Assembly (NCBI RefSeq): GCF_000510645.1 | Contig: NZ_KI783301.1 | Span: 379,104-443,103, forward strand | Length of the DNA stretch: 64,000 bases | Direction of reading: 5' to 3' | Source of the DNA: Thermicanus aegyptius DSM 12793 | Lineage (GTDB): Bacteria > Bacillota > Bacilli > Thermicanales > Thermicanaceae | Part shown: positions 47,091 through 57,034 of the stretch, piece after piece | How the letters are laid out: each line of letters opens with the position of its first letter | How positions within the stretch are numbered: the stretch's first letter is position 1 | Notes under the pieces: generated by a model | Told to the model about the DNA's origin: nothing | The model's input: only the letters and a program-made list of their open reading frames with translations | Database searches by the model: none | Made by a program: the position numbers and the translations under genes

Positions 47091-47984
47091 ATGCATTTAA
47101 GGAATCGAAAGAATCCCTTCGTTGTTGCTTTAACCCTGATGCTATTCGCCGCTTCTTTTCTCATTCCGGTGCATGCTCCCTCGGCTGCCCCATTATCGAA
47201 AGCAGATCAGGTCGTCCAGGTGGCCAAAAGCCTTTTGGGGAAGCCATATAAAGCGGGCGCAACCGGCCCGTATGCCTTTGATAACTGGGCGTTTACCAAA
47301 GAAGTTTTTTCCCGCGTGGGCATTTTATTAAACGACTCCGTTACGGCTCAAGCAAAACAAGGGATCCTAATTCCAAAGGGAATATCCCCGAAACCAGGGG
47401 ATCTCGTCTTCTTTGGATACGGCCCATCCCGTGTGATCCACGTAGGGATCTACATGGGAAATAACCAATTGATTGACGCCTATCAATACAGCGGTAAGGT
47501 GGCCGTTCACGATGCAACGGGGATCTACAAAAAATATTATCTTGGCGCAAGACGAGTCATTCAGGAAGAAAATCCTTCCTCCGACTCCCGCGCCCAAGTG
47601 GCAGCCCGAGTGGTGGAGGATGCAAAAAAATATTTAGGGGTGGACTACAAGCTGGGGGCTGATTACGACAAAGACGGCAGCTACAAATTTGATTGCAGCA
47701 GCTTCACTCAGAAGGTCTTCGCCGATGTGGGGATTAAACTTCCCCGAACCGCAACACAGCAGCGAAATGTTACCCGGCTTCTTTCCCCTGGAGAGACGCT
47801 CCAAATCGGGGATCTGGTTTTCTTCGATACCGATTTAAGCGGAGGGATGAACCACGTGGGCATTTACATCGGAAACCAGGAATTTATTCATGCTTCCACC
47901 GCAAAGGGCGGCAAGGTTCAGATCAGCCGTTTGGACCGCCCCTACTGGAAAAAAGTATATCTTTATGCAACACGGGTGTTTTAG
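47091..47984 (+). CDS. Secreted NlpC/P60 protein with one active and one degenerate domain
   Basis: 297 aa. A Sec signal peptide (residues 1-33, ending around APSAA) is followed by two NlpC/P60 domains. NlpC/P60 enzymes are Cys peptidases that cut peptidoglycan peptides. The second domain has the catalytic FDCSSF (Cys202) and MNHVGIYIG (His255). In the first domain the same position reads FDNWAF, so the Cys is replaced by Asn65, while His117 (RVIHVGIYM) is kept. The first domain is therefore probably a binding module. An extended -10 (TATGAT at 47047) lies upstream. A role in spore or vegetative wall remodelling is likely. Confidence 0.9.
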   Translation: MHLRNRKNPFVVALTLMLFAASFLIPVHAPSAAPLSKADQVVQVAKSLLGKPYKAGATGPYAFDNWAFTKEVFSRVGILLNDSVTAQAKQGILIPKGISPKPGDLVFFGYGPSRVIHVGIYMGNNQLIDAYQYSGKVAVHDATGIYKKYYLGARRVIQEENPSSDSRAQVAARVVEDAKKYLGVDYKLGADYDKDGSYKFDCSSFTQKVFADVGIKLPRTATQQRNVTRLLSPGETLQIGDLVFFDTDLSGGMNHVGIYIGNQEFIHASTAKGGKVQISRLDRPYWKKVYLYATRVF

Positions 47985-48004: not shown

Positions 48005-49084
48005 TTAAACTCCGACGATCTTCCGACAGAGGAAAAGGTGGTACTCAATGGGCTTTCTGACCGCTTCCTGATAGGCCTCCCGCTGACCTGTTCGCAGAAA
48101 AATTTTACGGTCCGGTTTCGAATTGGCTTCGATCAACCGGAAACTGCCATCGGACAGGATGCCAAGATCCAAACCAAACTCAACAAAGGACCCATACCGT
48201 TCTTCCAATTTTTTTGCAATGAGCAGCGAAATCTTCCGGATCTTTTGGAGAATGGGTTCCGGGTCCCGATGAAGATATGAACGAACAAATTCTTCCGAGC
48301 GAATCGCATTTGCTCCTTTGGCTAAATTGGAGACCACTCGGTGGCTTTTTCCGATTCTTGTTCCCATTCCTGTGAAGCTCCATTCCCCCTTGCCGTCCTT
48401 TTGTACCAATACCCGGGTATCGCAGGTTTTCCCTCCATATTCAATGGGGATTTTTCGTTGAATCAAGTATCGTTCCCGATTGAGATGGGGGAGGATAACT
48501 TGCCTCAGCTCTTCCATTCCTACTATTTTATGGTCCAACCATCTTCCCTCCCGCGTTCTGCCGCTTAAGAGATACCGATTCCCTTTTTTTTCAAGAGCGA
48601 AGATATCCCGGCCCCCTGTTCCGTTGATCGGTTTTAGGATGGATGGGCCGCGTTTAAGAAAACGGGGGATCTCCTCGATACGGGTGAGGGGAATGGTCTC
48701 CGGAATGTACTCGTTTAGTTCCGGGAGGGAAGAGAGGTATTCCATCACGCCCAGTTTGTGAGAATATCCATGATATGAAAAAGGGATGATTCCTGATTTT
48801 CGAAATTCTACATAACGCTTAAATTGTTTCGTAGGATGGTATCGGACATGGTCGTAGACCAAATGGGGGAAAAAAACCCACCTTCTTTCCCACTTCTTTT
48901 GCTTCAGATCATAGCAGAGGGCGCGAATCCGTTCCTTTTTATGATCCACATCATCGACCCCAAAGGCAAAGAGTTCCACCGGGTAGTTTTGAGCCGCTTT
49001 AGTTAAAGCGGCGATATAACTCATTTGGCTGTAGCGGTCCTTGCCCGTTTGATAGGTGAGGACCCCGATTCGGTAAGATTTCAC
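48005..49084 (-). CDS. YheC/YheD family ATP-grasp protein, copy 5
   Basis: 359 aa from GTG 49084, which overlaps the acetyltransferase stop (GTGA) and follows GAAGGAAG; ATG 49105 is an alternative. ATP-grasp signs: ILKPINGTGGRDIFAL (phosphate-binding loop), YLIQRKIP, DTRVLVQKDGKGEWSFTGMGTRIG, and EFGLDLGI...FRLIEANSKPDRKIF (metal ligands). B. subtilis YheC/YheD are spore-coat-associated. The reaction is not known; ATP-grasp enzymes usually ligate a carboxylate to an amine, suggesting a peptide-like modification of the coat. Last of five paralogues read in the same direction. Confidence 0.85.
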   Translation of the reverse strand: MKSYRIGVLTYQTGKDRYSQMSYIAALTKAAQNYPVELFAFGVDDVDHKKERIRALCYDLKQKKWERRWVFFPHLVYDHVRYHPTKQFKRYVEFRKSGIIPFSYHGYSHKLGVMEYLSSLPELNEYIPETIPLTRIEEIPRFLKRGPSILKPINGTGGRDIFALEKKGNRYLLSGRTREGRWLDHKIVGMEELRQVILPHLNRERYLIQRKIPIEYGGKTCDTRVLVQKDGKGEWSFTGMGTRIGKSHRVVSNLAKGANAIRSEEFVRSYLHRDPEPILQKIRKISLLIAKKLEERYGSFVEFGLDLGILSDGSFRLIEANSKPDRKIFLRTGQREAYQEAVRKPIEYHLFLCRKIVGV

Positions 49085-49539
49085 GTCACATCTTCCTTCT
49101 TCCATTGTCCGATTCCCAACCAGAGGGTAGGTTTGCCGGTAGGTCCTTCGATTAATTTAAATCCGACCATACCAATGCCAAGGCACATTTTCAGGCTTGG
49201 CAGGTTGTCTAAAGCGACCCGCCCGTAGAGTGTACCCAGGCTCTCGATTGCCCTTTTCAGCATTTCCTTTCCCAGATTCCGATTCCGGTGCTTTGGATGG
49301 ACCGCAATCAATGATTCCTTGAGGCCAAAATCGGAAACGGCGAACAGGCCAATTAATTTTTTTGCCTCCGTTGCGATCAAGATCAGGGTTCCCTTCTCTT
49401 CCAATTCCTTTCCTTCCATGTTTTTTAACCAGCGGATGGCGCGGTGGGTAATATGCCCCCCACCAAACCGGCGAAGAAAGTGAAGCAGGAAAGGGCGGTA
49501 TGGGTGGAGCTCGTCAGGAGTAAGGGTACGGAATTCCAT
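49081..49539 (-). CDS. GNAT-family acetyltransferase in the ATP-grasp cluster
   Basis: 152 aa. The GNAT core is visible: LIGLFAVSDFGLKESLIAVHPKHRNRNLGKEMLKRAIESLG, where RNRNLGK is the acetyl-CoA-binding motif A (R/Q-x-x-G-x-G/A variant), followed by VALDNLPSLKMCLGIGMVGFKL. It lies between two YheC/YheD paralogues and its stop overlaps the start of the next gene, so it works with the ATP-grasp enzymes. Substrate unknown; a small amine or an amino group on the ATP-grasp product is possible. Confidence 0.82.
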   Translation of the reverse strand: MEFRTLTPDELHPYRPFLLHFLRRFGGGHITHRAIRWLKNMEGKELEEKGTLILIATEAKKLIGLFAVSDFGLKESLIAVHPKHRNRNLGKEMLKRAIESLGTLYGRVALDNLPSLKMCLGIGMVGFKLIEGPTGKPTLWLGIGQWKKEDVT

Positions 49540-49585
49540 CGGTTTTCCTCGTTTCTTCTGGAATTTATCATCGCCGGGAACCTAT

Positions 49586-50710
49586 TCATTCCAGACCGAC
49601 AAGGTATGCGCAATAGTCCCAGCGCCGCTTTAGGGATCGAGCTTGGATGGAAGGTTCATCAAATTTCATCGGTTTGGCATTTGCCTCAAAGAACCAGATT
49701 TTTTTATCCGGAGAAAGGCCTAAATCCATGGACATTTCACCCAGGACCGAACCATATCCTTCGTCAATCGATTGGGCTAACCTTAAGGAGACCTCTTCGA
49801 TGTTTCCATATTCCCTTTTTCTCTCGTTTCTGGTGAAGTAGAGGCTTAACGCCTCTTCCAGGGAGAGGATACTTCCCCCTTGAGGGACGTGTGTGGTAAT
49901 CCGATCCAGACCGGCGAGGCGGACGCCGATTCCCGTTACTCCCCATCTTCCTTTTTCCCCCTTTTGCACGAGCACCCGCAGGTCGAAAGGCCGTCCGGCG
50001 AAGGTGAGACGGGGAATTGCTTTTTGAATCAGATAAGACCTGCCGATGATGAAAGGAGCGAGGCGCCTCCACATTTCGGAATAACCAACCGCGTCCGCGC
50101 TTTGATCCTCTCCGTCGGTGGAACGGAGGCGGTATCGAGTCTCTTCTTTGTTTCCACGGACCGGTTCGACATAAAAGATCCCCTCCCCTGCTTTCCCGTC
50201 GGTCGGCTTGATATAGAGGGGAGTTTCGAGGGAGAGGGCCTCTCTAAGCGTTTTTTCACTTTTGAAGTGGTAGGTAGGGGGGAGATGTTCCTTCCAAGGG
50301 GAGCGGGAGAGAAGTTCATAAAGCTTCCCCTTGTCAAAAAAAGAGGGATTGAAGAATTTTGGGCCAAATGCGGCGCTCAAACGGTTGATGGTTTCGGCGA
50401 TCGGGGGGAGGGCTTCCCATTTCCGGTTGGGAATGCGGTTATAGACCACATCCGGCCATGGAGAACTCATCTCTTGCCATTCATTCTTTTCAGGAAGATA
50501 GTGGAGTCCTCGGATTCTTTGGCCGATCCAATCGATGCCGCCGGGGGTGAAGACGAATACCTTCCCTCCCTGTTGGTCCGCTGTTTTTGTAAAAGCTTTA
50601 AAGAGGGGGAGATTTCCCAAGATACGCCCACGGTGACTTACGGTAAGGATCCCGATCAACGGGGTGGCTCTCTCCATCTGCTCTAAATTCTTTTTTCTCT
50701 TTTTCTCCAT
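49586..50710 (-). CDS. YheC/YheD family ATP-grasp protein, copy 4
   Basis: 374 aa. Starts PLIGILTVSHRGRILGNLPLFKAF; ATP-grasp motifs LYIKPTDGKAGEGIFYV, YLIQKAIPRLTFAGRPFDLRVLVQKGEKGRWGVTGIGVRLAG, and GEMSMDLGLSPDKKIWFFEANAKPMKFDEPS. The final ligand segment reads EANAKP where the others have EANSKP or EVNGKP. Same family as its neighbours; probably acts late in sporulation. Confidence 0.85.
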   Translation of the reverse strand: MEKKRKKNLEQMERATPLIGILTVSHRGRILGNLPLFKAFTKTADQQGGKVFVFTPGGIDWIGQRIRGLHYLPEKNEWQEMSSPWPDVVYNRIPNRKWEALPPIAETINRLSAAFGPKFFNPSFFDKGKLYELLSRSPWKEHLPPTYHFKSEKTLREALSLETPLYIKPTDGKAGEGIFYVEPVRGNKEETRYRLRSTDGEDQSADAVGYSEMWRRLAPFIIGRSYLIQKAIPRLTFAGRPFDLRVLVQKGEKGRWGVTGIGVRLAGLDRITTHVPQGGSILSLEEALSLYFTRNERKREYGNIEEVSLRLAQSIDEGYGSVLGEMSMDLGLSPDKKIWFFEANAKPMKFDEPSIQARSLKRRWDYCAYLVGLE

Positions 50711-50746
50711 CTGATTTCCTCTCCCTCCTGTTCTTTTTCCATAAAA

Positions 50747-52120
50747 CTAACGAAATCTCGCCAAATAGGTCATATATTCGGTGAGAAGATGGATGGGTTT
50801 CAAGCTGATTGCTTTTAATTCGTCTATTTTTTCGAAGATGGAACGCCCCGGCTTTGAATTGGCTTCAAAGAGCCAAATCTTCCCGTTACGATCGATGCCG
50901 AGATCAAGACCCAATTCCCCGATCGGTTTTTGGAACGATCGTTCCAAGGCTTCTCCTACCGCGACGGAGATTCGCCCCAGTTTTCGATAAAACTCTTCCC
51001 CTTGATCGAGGAAAAGATGATCTAAAACTTGCCGAGCGGCCAGGGCTTTTCCCCCCGCCCGTATGTGGGTCGTTACGCTTCCTTTCCCTGCTTTTTTGGC
51101 GCCGATCCCCGTCACAATCCATCGGTTATCCTTATCTTTATTTAAGTGAACACGGAAGTCGACGGGATCTTCTCCCAAACGCATCAGGGATATTCCTTGC
51201 TGCACGAGGTATTTCTTCCTTTTCCGTTCAGGGAACTCCCTTTTCAGCAAAGAGGCGACGGAGGGATAGATGCGGGAAAGATTTCGATCGTGCAGGCGAT
51301 AGCGAACCAGTAATCCTTTCGCTTGCCGCAACACTTGGTAGATGCCTAACCCGAGAAACCCATCGCTCGGTTTCAGATAGACCATGGGATACTTTTTGAG
51401 CATCTCTTCGATTCGTTCAACGGTGGGGTAAGGATAGGTTTCGGGAATGAGGTCTTTTAATTGCTCAAATGTCATAAGGCGCTGGTAGATGTCCCATTTT
51501 TGGAAATAGGATTCATTAAAGATCTGGGCATGGGTATGGGCATAAAGAAGGTTGAAAAAGCGCATCACCTCAGGGGATTCCTCTTTCCTGCGGGAGAGAA
51601 TCTTATTGTAGATCACGTCCGGGAAGGGAACCTTCTTCGTTTCCCATACCGCCTTACTCCCTTGAAGACGATAGAAATATCCCTTTACGGTCAGTTCTTC
51701 CCAATCGACATCTTGGAAGTCAAAGAGAAAGTAGAGTCCACCCGGATGGCCCGGACGGTTTGGGTTTAACAGGGTGCGAAAGGTCCGAAGGAATCTTCGC
51801 TTCTGCAGATGATCCGGGTCCTCGTAGAGGCCGAAGGTGAGGATCCCAACCAGAGGCCCTAAGATGATCTTCCCTTTTTCGAGGCGAAGGAGGAGCGGAT
51901 CCGTATAGGGGATGAATAAATTCTCAAGCAAAGGGTCACTCACTCGAATTTCCCGGAGAGATCCGGAATGGAAACGAAGTTTAGCTTTGACCTCCCGATG
52001 GCCAAATTGTACAAAGGGCGTTGTATTTCCTGCAAATTTTTCCCTCCATCTTCTAGGGAGCGCGATGAGAGGATCTTCTCTCCCCGACATACGTTTTATT
52101 CTCATGGTTTGCGACTGCAT
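50747..52120 (-). CDS. YheC/YheD family ATP-grasp protein, copy 3, long form
   Basis: 457 aa. An extra N-terminal domain (residues 1-90) precedes the common GPLVGILTFGLYEDPDHLQKR start. ATP-grasp motifs: VYLKPSDGFLGLGIYQV, YLVQQGISLMRLGEDPVDFRVHLNKDKDNRWIVTGIGAKKAG, and ELGLDLGIDRNGKIWLFEANSKPGRSIF. The first ATG (52120) overlaps the end of the preceding gene by 68 nt; ATG 52105 or 52090 would reduce this. The extra domain resembles that of copy 1 in layout. Confidence 0.83.
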   Translation of the reverse strand: MQSQTMRIKRMSGREDPLIALPRRWREKFAGNTTPFVQFGHREVKAKLRFHSGSLREIRVSDPLLENLFIPYTDPLLLRLEKGKIILGPLVGILTFGLYEDPDHLQKRRFLRTFRTLLNPNRPGHPGGLYFLFDFQDVDWEELTVKGYFYRLQGSKAVWETKKVPFPDVIYNKILSRRKEESPEVMRFFNLLYAHTHAQIFNESYFQKWDIYQRLMTFEQLKDLIPETYPYPTVERIEEMLKKYPMVYLKPSDGFLGLGIYQVLRQAKGLLVRYRLHDRNLSRIYPSVASLLKREFPERKRKKYLVQQGISLMRLGEDPVDFRVHLNKDKDNRWIVTGIGAKKAGKGSVTTHIRAGGKALAARQVLDHLFLDQGEEFYRKLGRISVAVGEALERSFQKPIGELGLDLGIDRNGKIWLFEANSKPGRSIFEKIDELKAISLKPIHLLTEYMTYLARFR

Positions 52121-53210
52121 CGCCCTTTTCCCCCTTTTTCAGTTTCAAAAGATAGAGTGCATAGCGGACCGGACCAGAATAAACCCATTTCATTCCCTCC
52201 AAGTCTCCCAATTGGGCGAAGATATCCCTTCCCGGTTTCCCGTTCACTTCGAGAATCCATATCCGGTTTTGCCGATCGATCCCGATATCAATTCCCATTT
52301 CAAAAAGGGGTGAATATTCTTTTTCCAGGGTGGCGGCCACTTCAATCCCTAAAGGGGTTAGGATTTGATCCAGATTCTCCCCGATCCGTCCTTTTTCCCA
52401 CTCTTTGAACCGGTCGAGGGATAGGGTTATCCCTCCCCCATGCAGGTTGGAGGTAAGATGATGGGGCTTGCCGATGCGTACTCCCAGGCCTGCCCGACGC
52501 CATACCCCTTCTTCATCTTTCTGCATAAAGAGGCGGATGTCGAAGGGCCGGTCCTCCAGGGTGGTTAACGAAAGATAGCGCTGAATCAGGTATCGGGAGG
52601 TGAGGCGGGGAACGACGAGACGGAAAGCTTTTTCAGATGAGGGAAACGTTTTACGAAAGTAGCGATTCTCCCTCGTTCGCCCTTCCAAGAGGGCGGGCGT
52701 ACCGGGAACGAGATGCAAAACACCCTGACCAAATCCCCCGGAGAGGGGTTTTAAGATCACTTCTCCTTCTTGTGCCCATTTTCGCAGTTGCTCCCCATTT
52801 GCATATCTCTCTTGAGGGGGGAGGTGCTGTACCAAGCGGGGATTTTTCCTCAGGCACCAAAATTGTTTCCATTTGTCGGGTAGCCCCCGGTTGAGAAAAG
52901 TTGTACCCGGCTGATTCCGTAAGTCGGCTACTTTCCAACGCGTTCTGTTTAAGGAAGAAGCGGTATAGAAAACCCTGTCGTAAACGAAGGTCGGATACGG
53001 AAAGATTCCCTTCTTCCATTTCCCTTCGTGCCAAACGAACCCATTGATTTTTCTAGAATAGGGATTGATCTCTTCGGGGAAAAAGGTAAAGACCATAAGG
53101 CCTTTCTCCTTTCCTATGCGAGCCAATTCAGCATAAAATTTCTCCTCCGGGAAAGGGGAGAAGCGGGGAGAGCGGGTGGTCATAATCCCTAACGAAATTC
53201 TTTCGTTCAT
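52053..53210 (-). CDS. YheC/YheD family ATP-grasp protein, copy 2
   Basis: 385 aa. Begins ISLGIMTTRSPRFSPFPEEKFYAELARIG. ATP-grasp motifs: VILKPLSGGFGQGVLHLV, YLIQRYLSLTTLEDRPFDIRLFMQKDEEGVWRRAGLGVRIG, and EMGIDIGIDRQNRIWILEVNGKPGRDIF. A short Lys/Arg-rich tail (about 25 residues) extends into the next gene. Starts 4 nt before the stop of copy 1 (ATGA overlap). Confidence 0.84.
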   Translation of the reverse strand: MNERISLGIMTTRSPRFSPFPEEKFYAELARIGKEKGLMVFTFFPEEINPYSRKINGFVWHEGKWKKGIFPYPTFVYDRVFYTASSLNRTRWKVADLRNQPGTTFLNRGLPDKWKQFWCLRKNPRLVQHLPPQERYANGEQLRKWAQEGEVILKPLSGGFGQGVLHLVPGTPALLEGRTRENRYFRKTFPSSEKAFRLVVPRLTSRYLIQRYLSLTTLEDRPFDIRLFMQKDEEGVWRRAGLGVRIGKPHHLTSNLHGGGITLSLDRFKEWEKGRIGENLDQILTPLGIEVAATLEKEYSPLFEMGIDIGIDRQNRIWILEVNGKPGRDIFAQLGDLEGMKWVYSGPVRYALYLLKLKKGEKGDAVANHENKTYVGERRSSHRAP

Positions 53211-54607
53211 CCGACTCCCTTCCCTCCCTCTTTTTGATGAAGCGAAAAATGAAGGTAGTAAAATAGCGTATCAAAAAGGTGCTGCACGGAAGGGCGGGGG
53301 CCCGTCACCGGGGTGAGGGTCGCCTCTTCTTTTTTCGAAGGCTTTGAGTTTACCTCGATGAGCCAAACTTCCCCTGCTTGGCTAACGCCCAGATCGATGC
53401 CGAATTCCCCATAATAACCGCTTAATTTTCCATCCAATCTTCGAGCCACTTCTCTAGCCAGGGCTTTTAACCGGTGAATGGTTGGAAGAGCGGGGTGGCT
53501 TTCGCGAAGTTCCGAGAGAATGTGAGAGGCTCTTTCCATCCTTCCCCCCTGTGCCACATTGGAAACGAAGGCGCCCGGCTTGCCAATCCGGGCCACTAGG
53601 GAGACCACTTTCCATTCTCCATTTCTTCCTTTTTGGACGAGGACTCTAAAATCGGTCGTTCTCCTTTCCACTTCAAGGAGAGGAATGCCCTTCTGCAGGA
53701 GATACCGTTTCCGTTTGATTTTTTGCCTCAAACTGTGCAACAATGAGGGGAGAGTCGAGTAGAATTTTGTCTCCATTTGTTCACCGATCATCTCATCGGT
53801 CAAATAACCATCTCCCGTTTTCCGCACGCGGATGATTCCTGTTCCTTCACTCCCGTGAAGAGGTTTAAGGAAAAGGACAGACGTGTGAACGAGCATCTCT
53901 TTAATCATGGAAAGTTTTACCGCAGGCAGACTGAGGGGAAGATGCGGGAGAAGGTCTACTTCCCCTTGGAGGAGCTCGACCACCTCCCATTTATTTAGAA
54001 ATTTATCATTAAAGAGGACTCCGTTTTTCTCCCGCAGCGATTGTTGCAAGGAGGAGAAAAGAGGAGAGCGTTCCTGACTTCGAACGGAGAGGCGATTGTA
54101 AAGAATGGTTGGGATCGGCATGGGATACGGTCTCCATCCCTCTTTCTCCTTCACCCACCCCTCCACCCGGTTTTCCTTTACCATTAGGCTCCGGAAAGGG
54201 ATCACATAGCAGAGAACGTTGAAAGAACGGGAAAGGGCCCAAGCTTCCTCACAAAACCGGGTATAAAGACCGAAGGGATCCTCCTTTTCCCCCTTTACTC
54301 CAGAGAGGAGGATACCAAAGGTAGGCCCAAAGAGGATCTCTTTTTCCGGGGTAAGCCACCCATAAATCTTTACCGGGAAGGGAAGAAGCAGGCGGTTTGC
54401 AAACCTTTTTCTCATGCGAAGCAATCCTTTTTTATGCGCTTCCCCCCCGATGTTCCCGATCTCCCTCTTTAGGCCAAGCCGGATCGGCAAGGAAGTGCCG
54501 GGAGGGAGATTCCACTTGGTTAGTACTTCATGATGGAAGAGGAGATCGATTCCCGGAGGGAAGTGCACCTCTTCCTCAATGCGAATCTCAAAAGGGGTCG
54601 CTTTCAT
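53207..54607 (-). CDS. YheC/YheD family ATP-grasp protein, copy 1, long form
   Basis: 466 aa from ATG 54607; the open frame reaches 54715, but that region carries a TATAAC-like -10 and the extra residues do not resemble the family. N-terminal extra domain as in copy 3, then LFGPTFGILLSG. ATP-grasp motifs: LFLKPLHGSEGTGIIRV, YLLQKGIPLLEVERRTTDFRVLVQKGRNGEWKVVSLVARIG, and EFGIDLGVSQAGEVWLIEVNSKPSKKEE. First gene of the five-paralogue run; yheB lies divergently 129 bp away. Confidence 0.83.
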   Translation of the reverse strand: MKATPFEIRIEEEVHFPPGIDLLFHHEVLTKWNLPPGTSLPIRLGLKREIGNIGGEAHKKGLLRMRKRFANRLLLPFPVKIYGWLTPEKEILFGPTFGILLSGVKGEKEDPFGLYTRFCEEAWALSRSFNVLCYVIPFRSLMVKENRVEGWVKEKEGWRPYPMPIPTILYNRLSVRSQERSPLFSSLQQSLREKNGVLFNDKFLNKWEVVELLQGEVDLLPHLPLSLPAVKLSMIKEMLVHTSVLFLKPLHGSEGTGIIRVRKTGDGYLTDEMIGEQMETKFYSTLPSLLHSLRQKIKRKRYLLQKGIPLLEVERRTTDFRVLVQKGRNGEWKVVSLVARIGKPGAFVSNVAQGGRMERASHILSELRESHPALPTIHRLKALAREVARRLDGKLSGYYGEFGIDLGVSQAGEVWLIEVNSKPSKKEEATLTPVTGPRPSVQHLFDTLFYYLHFSLHQKEGGKGVG

Positions 54608-54735
54608 CTTCGTCCCTACTTCAATGGTTTGGTTATACCCGTCTTTCACATCGTATGTACAGTGGGGCACCTGTGTGAAGAGAAGGGGCTTGACTGCCCA
54701 TAGAGTTTCGCCCACCGCATAAAGGAGGAACCCCT

Positions 54736-55869
54736 GTGGTTTTCACATTATTGGGTATGATTTTTATCGGCGCCGTTATCGGCAGCTTTACCAACTATAT
54801 TGCGATTAAAATGCTCTTCCGCCCTTACCGCTCCATCACATGGGGTCCCTTTCATCTTCCCTTTACTCCTGGGCTGATCCCGAAGCGAAAGGAGGAGATC
54901 GCCCATCAGTTCGGGAGAATGGTGGAGGAATATCTCATGACGGAAAAAACGGTGAAGGAAGCTTTCCTCTCTCCCCGGATGGAGAGGGAACTTCGGGTTC
55001 GGATGCGCATCACTCTACGTCGAATGTTAAAGAGCAAAGAGAGTCCGGCTCAATTGGGGAGTTCCCTCGGTCTACCGGAGTGGGAAGCGTGGGTAGAGAA
55101 GTTAACTACACCCCATTTGGATGAAAATAGGCTGGTTCGCCTGATCGCCGAACAGATGGATCGGTATCGGGGGATCCCCATCGGCCACTTCCTTCATCTA
55201 CCTTCCGAATCGCTCGATCGGTTCAGCTCTTACCTGGCCGGTGAAATGGTGAATGAGCTTCATGCTTTCCTCCTTTCATCCCAGGGGAGAAGGTGGGTGA
55301 TGGAGGCCCTTGACCGGATTTTGGCGGGGAGAAATCCCATGTGGCAGTGGGCGGCGGCTCTCTTTGTGAGGGAGGATCGGATCGAGGAGATGCTTATTCT
55401 TCCCCTCGCACGCTACCTGGGAAGCCCTCATGTGGCCAAAGAATGGGAGGGGAAGATCAAGGGATATTTGGAAGGGTTTCTGGGAAAAAGCCTTCAGGAA
55501 TTAACCGGGACAGAAACCTCGATTCCTTTGGCCTCTTTTTTGGTCAAAACCTTAGGCCTTCAGGAAGGGGTTTTCCGGATTTTTCATCGTCCGGCGGGGG
55601 ACTGGGGGAAACGCCTCTACACCTTCCTTCTTCCTTTACTACCGAAGGTGAGCCAATGGATCCTGAGGCAACTGAACGAAGAAATCAGCGCCATCTACCG
55701 CTCCTTACACATATCCCGGTTGGTGGAAAAGGAGGTAGCCTCTTTTCCGCTGCCGAAGCTGGAACAGATGATCCTGGAAGTGACGCGCAGGGAACTGAAG
55801 GCCATCACTCTTCTGGGCGGTCTATTGGGAGGGTTGATCGGCCTGTTTCAGTTTTTGATTATGGGCTGA
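54736..55869 (+). CDS. yheB: DUF445 family membrane protein YheB
   Basis: 377 aa from GTG 54736 with AAAGGAGG upstream. Family landmarks: N-terminal IFIGAVIGSFTNYIAIKMLFRPYRSITWGPFHLPFTPGLIPKRKEEIAHQFGRMVEEYLMT and a hydrophobic C-terminal helix (LLGGLLGGLIGLFQFLIMG). In B. subtilis yheB neighbours yheA, yheC and yheD, and the same neighbourhood recurs here. Function unknown; an envelope or spore role is inferred from context. Confidence 0.9.
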   Translation: MVFTLLGMIFIGAVIGSFTNYIAIKMLFRPYRSITWGPFHLPFTPGLIPKRKEEIAHQFGRMVEEYLMTEKTVKEAFLSPRMERELRVRMRITLRRMLKSKESPAQLGSSLGLPEWEAWVEKLTTPHLDENRLVRLIAEQMDRYRGIPIGHFLHLPSESLDRFSSYLAGEMVNELHAFLLSSQGRRWVMEALDRILAGRNPMWQWAAALFVREDRIEEMLILPLARYLGSPHVAKEWEGKIKGYLEGFLGKSLQELTGTETSIPLASFLVKTLGLQEGVFRIFHRPAGDWGKRLYTFLLPLLPKVSQWILRQLNEEISAIYRSLHISRLVEKEVASFPLPKLEQMILEVTRRELKAITLLGGLLGGLIGLFQFLIMG

Positions 55870-55945: not shown

Positions 55946-56287
55946 ATGGAATATTCGTTGGCCTATTCATTGGCGAGAAAGATTGAAGAGAGCGAGGAAT
56001 ATCGCGCCTTAAAGGAAGCGTATGAAGAGATCGGGAAAGATCCGGAAGCGAAGCGGATGCTCCTCGATTTTAGACAGAGGGAGCGGGAGTTGCAGGAGAA
56101 GCAATTGGCAGGGGAGGAACCGGACAACGAAGAGGTGGAGAAGTTGCAGCGCCTCTTTGATACCATCCGTCTCCATCAGGGGATAAGCCGTCTCATGGAA
56201 CAGGAATCCCGCCTCATGCTCCTATATGAAGACATCCAAAGGATCTTGGCGGAACCTTTGGGAAAATTGGCGGACATCATCGAGTAG
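55946..56287 (+). CDS. yheA: YlbF/YmcA-family protein YheA
   Basis: 113 aa, all-helical: SLARKIEESEEYRALKEAYEEIGKDPEAKRMLLDFRQRERELQEKQLAGEE, as in the YheA/UPF0342 branch of the YlbF/YmcA family. AGAAGGAGGT lies 8 nt before the ATG. It follows yheB on the same strand, matching the B. subtilis order. Relatives YlbF and YmcA form a regulator of competence and sporulation; YheA itself is uncharacterised. Confidence 0.9.
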   Translation: MEYSLAYSLARKIEESEEYRALKEAYEEIGKDPEAKRMLLDFRQRERELQEKQLAGEEPDNEEVEKLQRLFDTIRLHQGISRLMEQESRLMLLYEDIQRILAEPLGKLADIIE

Positions 56288-56344: not shown

Positions 56345-57034
56345 ATGAAAGTTACGTATCACGGACATGCGACCGTCATGGTGGAAACGGGGGGGAAAAA
56401 GATTCTCTTCGATCCCTTTTTCACGGGAAATCCGAAAGCGGACGTGAAGGCGGAGGATGTGCGGCCCGATTATATTCTTCTTACCCACGGACATGGGGAT
56501 CACACCGCCGACGCGGTAAGCATCGCGAAGCGGACGGGAGCCACCATCGTCGCCGTCTATGAATTGGCCACCCTCCTAGGATGGCGGGGGGCGAGGACCC
56601 ATGGCGTAGGATTGGGGGGATCTTACGACATGGGGGGCATCAAGGCGAAGTTTACCCTTGCCTTCCATAGTTCATCCCTGGAAGATCAGGAACACCGCAC
56701 CCTCCACTATGCGGGCATGCCGGCAGGGATTCTTCTCATGGCGGAGGGAAAAACGATCTATCATGCCGGAGATACCGCCCTCTTCTCCGATATGAAGGTG
56801 ATCGGGGAGCGGCATCGCCCCGATCTCGCCCTCCTTCCCATCGGCGACAATTTCACCATGGGTCCGGAGGATGCACTTTTAGCGGCCGAATGGCTCAAAG
56901 CGAAGCAGGTGGTCCCCATCCACTATAACACCTTCCCCCTGATCGCCCAGGATGGGGATGCGTTCGTGGCGAAACTGAAGGAAAGAGGGATTGGGGGCGC
57001 CGCCTTAAAACCGGGAGAGTCCATTGAGGTTTAA
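56345..57034 (+). CDS. Metal-dependent hydrolase, UPF0173 (beta-lactamase fold)
   Basis: 229 aa. Metallo-beta-lactamase fold with the metal-binding THGHGDH at about residue 47-53, further ligands in [10 protein letters not shown] and PIHYNTFP. N-terminal [14 protein letters not shown] is typical of the UPF0173/YtkL group. Soluble; substrate not known. GGAGAG precedes the ATG. A hairpin at 57151 probably ends the transcript. Confidence 0.9.

Follow-up and report, generated by a model that had tools for sequence, protein, structure and literature searches.

The window, that is, the whole stretch of 64,000 nucleotides of Thermicanus aegyptius DSM 12793 DNA that was analysed, contains a run of five YheC/YheD-like ATP-grasp genes together with an acetyltransferase gene, which raises the question of how such a set arose and what its products would do together. 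The original prediction suggested an assembly line and implied a local expansion from a pair like that of B. subtilis. All five genes are full-length open reading frames on the minus strand that match the YheC/D-like ATP-grasp family PF14398 with 210–255 bits each (curated cut-off 26.8 bits), and every match spans nearly the full profile. The embedded gene has weak but clear matches to GNAT profiles (E about 1e-5), with both Acetyltransf_1 (25.8 bits, cut-off 20.7) and Acetyltransf_10 above their cut-offs. These Pfam matches bear out the composition first proposed for positions 48005–54607 (Table 1), and the copies do overlap or nearly touch, as had been described: copies 1 and 2 overlap by 4 bp, copies 2 and 3 by 68 bp, and gaps of 36 and 46 bp, with none larger, flank copy 4. 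The start of copy 1 is most likely the ATG at 54607, where it was originally placed; this ATG has AGGGA upstream and is preferred over the GTG at 54715 that opens the longer reading frame. Copy 5 has an alternative GTG start at 49084, in a 4 bp overlap with the GNAT stop.

Table 1. Features of the YheC/D array and its divergent neighbours (positions in the window; group values are supports in the second tree).
Feature	Position	Strand	Description
Sigma-K-type promoter CACA-N16-CATACGATG	54649..54677 (-35 54677-54674, -10 54657-54649)	-	Predicted; pattern before C1
Copy 1 (group C1)	53207..54607	-	466 aa, N-terminal domain; PF14398 220 bits; C1 group 98
N-terminal beta-barrel domain of copy 1	54344..54607 (approximate limits)	-	hhalign to C3 domain
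Copy 2 (group C2, yheC group)	52053..53210	-	385 aa; PF14398 210 bits
Copy 3 (group C3, yheD group)	50747..52120	-	457 aa, N-terminal domain; PF14398 255 bits
N-terminal double-psi beta-barrel of copy 3	51857..52120	-	AlphaFold2 pLDDT 90.4; structure matches
Copy 4 (group C4)	49586..50710	-	374 aa; PF14398 222 bits; C4 group 98
GNAT acetyltransferase, conserved slot after C4	49081..49539	-	GNAT Pfam matches; same-slot homologues in many arrays
Copy 5 (group C5)	48005..49105	-	366 aa; PF14398 212 bits; C5 group 96
yheB-like DUF445 gene, divergent neighbour	54736..55869	+	PF04286; recurs beside arrays
yheA-like YlbF/YmcA gene	55946..56287	+	PF06133; recurs beside arrays

PF14398 is present in 263 of the 399 genomes sampled from the class, and the relatives that were fetched carry two to five copies in tandem per array. 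In a first tree, built with 152 copies taken from 40 loci, the groups coincide with array position for complete arrays. A second tree of 80 proteins, calculated with IQ-TREE under a site-mixture model from a sample that also takes in two loci from other classes and one Bacillus-like locus (L085), recovers C1, C4 and C5 with supports of 98, 98 and 96, and has six label changes, compared to a minimum possible of five. C2 and C3 account for two label changes only because the separately labelled yheC and yheD of the Bacillus-like locus nest within them. In both trees, copy 2 of the window falls within the C2 region, together with the order relatives. Judged by the two trees, the phylogeny that had been proposed as a check shows the copies to belong to five ancient groups of orthologues, C1–C5, each tied to array position. 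The copies of the window, described from the outset as diverged, share 23–29% pairwise identity. Recent or local duplication is ruled out by the trees and by this identity, and the expansion from a B. subtilis-like pair does not hold. A lineage-specific duplication for gene dosage, which the tandem arrangement of homologues might suggest, is almost certainly not the explanation: besides their low identity, the copies group with their positional counterparts in other families and not with their neighbours.

The order C1-C2-C3-C4-(GNAT)-(C5) recurs in Brevibacillus, Paenibacillus, Cohnella, Thermoactinomycetaceae and some Bacillaceae. We examined 80 named loci, which span Brevibacillus, Paenibacillus, Cohnella, Thermoactinomycetaceae, Ammoniphilus, Cytobacillus, Priestia and others. 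An intact C1-C2-C3-C4 run is found in 74; three more have split reading frames and three are without C1, two of the latter at contig ends. None of the 80 contradicts the order. Similarity to C3 was the basis on which these loci were retrieved, and they inform on order, not on frequency. The loci behind these counts, and behind those for catalytic residues and promoter pattern below, are related and in part selected by that similarity, so the counts are not independent. The scan of named genomes returned zero matches with copy 3 as a single-sequence query, and succeeded with an alignment as the query instead. Four loci outside the class also have C1-C2-C3-C4-GNAT; groups C1–C5 do not accommodate the remaining arrays there. 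In a genome of another class, a single run (L188; G440:C3:95000-114900) comprises about ten diverged YheC/D genes without a clear fit to C1–C5, a different expansion of the family.

The acetyltransferase shares this conservation of position. A homologue follows C4, and precedes C5 where C5 exists, in 38 of the 80 named loci, and the same slot is occupied in over half of the arrays that were fetched first. Among 61 genomes, 25 matches fall below an E-value of 1e-15, one each in 25 genomes, and all of them lie within an array. The acetyl-CoA loop is recognizable in the sequence, with Arg85 in a VHPxxR loop; this arginine is invariant among 54 homologues, in which the motif GPTGKPTL is also near-fixed. 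From its conserved slot, we assign the GNAT protein to the operon as a dedicated member.

The catalytic residues are retained throughout. Lys208, Lys250, Gly254, Gly257, Gln307, Asp321, Arg323, Glu402, Asp406, Glu419 and Asn421 (numbering of copy 3) are conserved at 97–100% in every group and are present in all copies of the window. The last three form a D...E-x-N triad with 13- and 2-residue spacing, which we take to be equivalent to the metal ligands of D-Ala-D-Ala ligase; the roles of the residues are assigned by that comparison. The lysine for ATP and the glycine loop expected of ATP-grasp ligases are likewise retained in all window copies (Lys250, Gly254 and Gly257). The loss of metal ligands from several copies, named originally as evidence against the prediction, is thus not observed in any of the five. 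Dead copies are ruled out by this conservation, and by their residues the copies are enzymes, not relics. A structural role, with the ATP-grasp fold serving ATP-dependent shell assembly instead of ligation, would account for the properties of B. subtilis YheD, which forms a SpoIVA-dependent shell around the spore and interacts strongly with itself, its function being stated as unknown (PMC7911427). We consider this role improbable, as the metal and catalytic residues are fully conserved in all five groups and the linked GNAT protein argues for enzymes.

Around the conserved catalytic motifs, certain positions are fixed differently by group. Position 352 is Asn in C1, C2 and C5 and His in C3 and C4; Ser338 is found only in C1, Lys342 only in C3 and Ser404 only in C4, and position 426 is also fixed differently by group. 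Such positions fit different substrates for the predicted enzymes. They also favor the main rival to sequential action, namely parallel action on several acceptors, in which each copy would modify its own coat protein or metabolite and the ligases would work independently, without an assembly line. The persistence of partial sets in lineages such as that of L085 points the same way, whereas the fixed order and the joint retention of C1–C4 across families and classes suggest a linked function. Although operon order alone is no proof of sequential steps, we regard independent action as rather unlikely.

The AlphaFold2 model of copy 3 has a mean pLDDT of 92.8. A search for a solved structure by sequence gave chance matches only, and the closest solved folds to residues 87–457 are RimK (Z 21.7, rmsd 3.0 for 278 aligned residues), ArgX (Z 21.2), GshB (Z 20.9) and LysX (Z 20.5). 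RimK, LysX/ArgX and GshB are carboxylate-amine ligases; RimK is a poly-alpha-glutamate ligase acting on ribosomal protein S6. Despite Z scores of 20–22, they share 14–17% identity with copy 3, have different substrates, and are single genes of other pathways, without an N-terminal beta-barrel and without a tandem set. Copy 1 lies below the cut-offs for membership of the RimK and MptN families (rimK_fam 19.4 compared to 143.4 bits, MptN 31.4 compared to 350), and copy 5 below those for glutathione synthase (22 bits compared to 272 and 408). The window copies are thus alike in fold, but are not members of these families. PPIP5K-type kinases are also among the fold matches (PPIP5K2, Z 18.1), so that the copies could be read as kinases of the ATP-grasp type, with a small molecule or a coat component as substrate. 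This reading is highly improbable, since every higher-scoring fold match is a ligase of peptides or amino acids (RimK, LysX/ArgX and GshB, Z 18–22) and the weak NCBIfam matches are likewise to ligases (MptN, RimK and glutathione synthase).

Graspetide (microviridin-type) synthetases are ATP-grasp ligases acting on peptides as well; the synthetase PsnB (7drm) matches copy 3 with a Z score of 17.7, and a ligase associated with ribosomally made peptides (RiPPs; 7mgv) is among the best Foldseek matches. The array differs in being linked to sporulation and has no precursor gene inside it, its gaps being at most 46 bp. No graspetide precursor was found among the recurrent array neighbours of 70 aa or more, although a shorter or more remote one may exist.

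As originally observed, copies 1 and 3 have an additional N-terminal domain, some 88 residues long, and profile–profile alignment identifies it as the same domain in C1 and C3 (hhalign probability 98.7%, E 3e-16). Taken alone, the N-terminal 88 residues of copy 3 match p97/CDC48 N domains and designed double-psi beta-barrels (Z up to 8.4, Foldseek E about 0.003). The score is borderline, and nearly all top matches are double-psi beta-barrels. The barrel differs from that of p97/CDC48 in being attached to an ATP-grasp ligase, and the identity is 10–14%. Homologues of copy 4 often have an N-terminal extension, which copy 4 of the window lacks.

Promoters of the sigma-E and sigma-K types were searched for, as had been proposed. 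The pattern CAC[AC]-N15/16-CATANNNT[AG] precedes C1 in 85 of 116 arrays, including that of the window (N16). It is absent from the reverse strand (0/116) and occurs once in 388 regions before C2–C5, with a mean of 0.35 in shuffled sequences; the regions before C2–C5 are operon-internal and measure the chance rate of the motif, not other promoters. The spacing is identical in 84 of the 85 arrays, and the spacer sequence differs between genera. We take the sigma-K consensus to be CAC[AC] at -35 and CATANNNTA at -10, from which the -10 element of the window, CATACGATG, differs at the last base. The spacing agrees with that of the B. subtilis sigma-K consensus, in which 15 bp (±1) separate a 5-base element from a 10-base one (PMC517825). 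A sigma-E promoter before C1 is ruled out, as its pattern was found there on the forward strand of none of the 116 arrays.

A second link to sporulation comes from gene content. SpoIVA is encoded in 206 of the 210 genomes with at least four PF14398 copies and in 62 of the 189 others (Fisher p 2e-50), the copies being counted among a limited number of candidates scored per genome; the genome of the window carries spoIVA itself. Because 15 genomes have a single PF14398 match without spoIVA, the YheC/D family has other uses too. The predicted sigma-K-type promoter and the co-occurrence with spoIVA speak against expression unrelated to sporulation, and expression of the array probably begins late in the mother cell.

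The yheC-yheD pair of B. subtilis belongs to the same family (PF14398, endospore coat-associated proteins) and has the same divergent DUF445 (yheB) and YlbF/YmcA (yheA) neighbours, but consists of two genes only, without the C1, C4, C5 and GNAT genes of the array. L085 also has only two copies; its host is inferred to be a Bacillus from the adjoining yheA, yheB and SspB-like genes. In the second tree, its yheC and yheD join the C2 and C3 sequences of Cytobacillus with a support of 99; the long branch of yheC makes its placement less sure than that of yheD. An operon of four to five genes, often with GNAT, is the widespread state, of which the two-gene version of Bacillus looks like a reduced form. 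The B. subtilis pair is reported to be in the sigma-E regulon (PMC517825), with partial stimulation by SpoIIID, whereas the full operon has the sigma-K-type pattern before C1. The full and reduced forms may therefore differ in the timing of expression. Neither a sigma-K nor a sigma-E pattern was found upstream of the yheC start in L085.

The recurrent neighbours of the arrays are yheB, yheA, metallo-beta-lactamase-fold, regulator-like and NlpC/P60 genes, along with unrelated ones, and no candidate for a coat substrate or acceptor was found among them. In the window, the metallo-beta-lactamase-fold gene (56345–57034) follows yheB-yheA, and it recurs beside arrays in 29 loci. A secreted-looking NlpC/P60 protein is encoded at 47091–47984, convergent with the array; its homologues recur close to arrays in 26 loci, where most of them likewise lie downstream and in the opposite orientation. 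The genome also has a sixth YheC/D copy, 1.9 Mb from the array, which overlaps and precedes a GT4-like glycosyltransferase gene. These two genes (L036:8473-10718; G000:C1:2333472-2335717) sit between ylbJ-like and cotJC-like genes (names assigned by eye) and are a separate small coat-related unit. The sixth copy lacks the proline of the NxKP motif that the array copies have, and neither a sigma-K nor a sigma-E pattern was found upstream of it. Adjoining the cotJC-like gene, L036:16803-17513 encodes a protein with tandem repeats like LPHTDHLYWAHPY, which looks like a repetitive coat protein.

The gene order, orthology, catalytic residues, promoter pattern, spoIVA co-occurrence and folds are computed results; the amide-ligase chemistry, sequential action, coat acceptor and role of the GNAT protein are inferred. 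We somewhat favor a late mother-cell sigma-K operon whose distinct amide ligases and acetyltransferase would act in sequence on a coat acceptor. Sigma-K RNA polymerase would transcribe this ancient sporulation operon late in the mother cell, giving four or five distinct orthologous ATP-grasp enzymes and the presumed acetyltransferase encoded after C4. By analogy with RimK, LysX/ArgX and GshB, each ATP-grasp enzyme would most likely convert a carboxylate to an acyl phosphate and join it to an amine. The five ligases would probably act successively on a coat-associated acceptor, which could be a protein tail, a small peptide or a polymer; this succession is suggested by the fixed order and joint retention of the genes. 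The target of the GNAT protein is probably the product or one of the building blocks, which it would acetylate, and the double-psi beta-barrel of C1 and C3 may be a binding site for the acceptor or for partner proteins. Some lineages retain just part of the operon (C2 and C3 only in L085), so not every step can be essential to the rest. An ordered multi-step process, as in the original assembly-line idea, fits the ancient positional orthology; the local expansion tied to it is rejected by the trees. A template-free assembly line for a coat peptide, with five ligases adding defined blocks in order and the GNAT protein capping the product, is a more tentative possibility.

The 2009 amidoligase survey of Iyer and colleagues reportedly predicted spore-wall modification for the YheC/D family, so the general idea may already have been proposed by others; the papers naming the family, within a partial coverage of the literature, contain no functional assignment. 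If the assembly line is real, it would produce a previously unseen modification or polymer of the coat, one shared by Bacilli and some other Bacillota. Earlier work on YheC and YheD used a species from which most of the operon has apparently been lost; with the full set, the fixed order, a dedicated acetyltransferase and the sigma-K-type promoter, Brevibacillus and Paenibacillus would be better suited for study. The prediction is that of an acetylated, multi-step amide modification of the spore coat, which would be made late in the mother cell.
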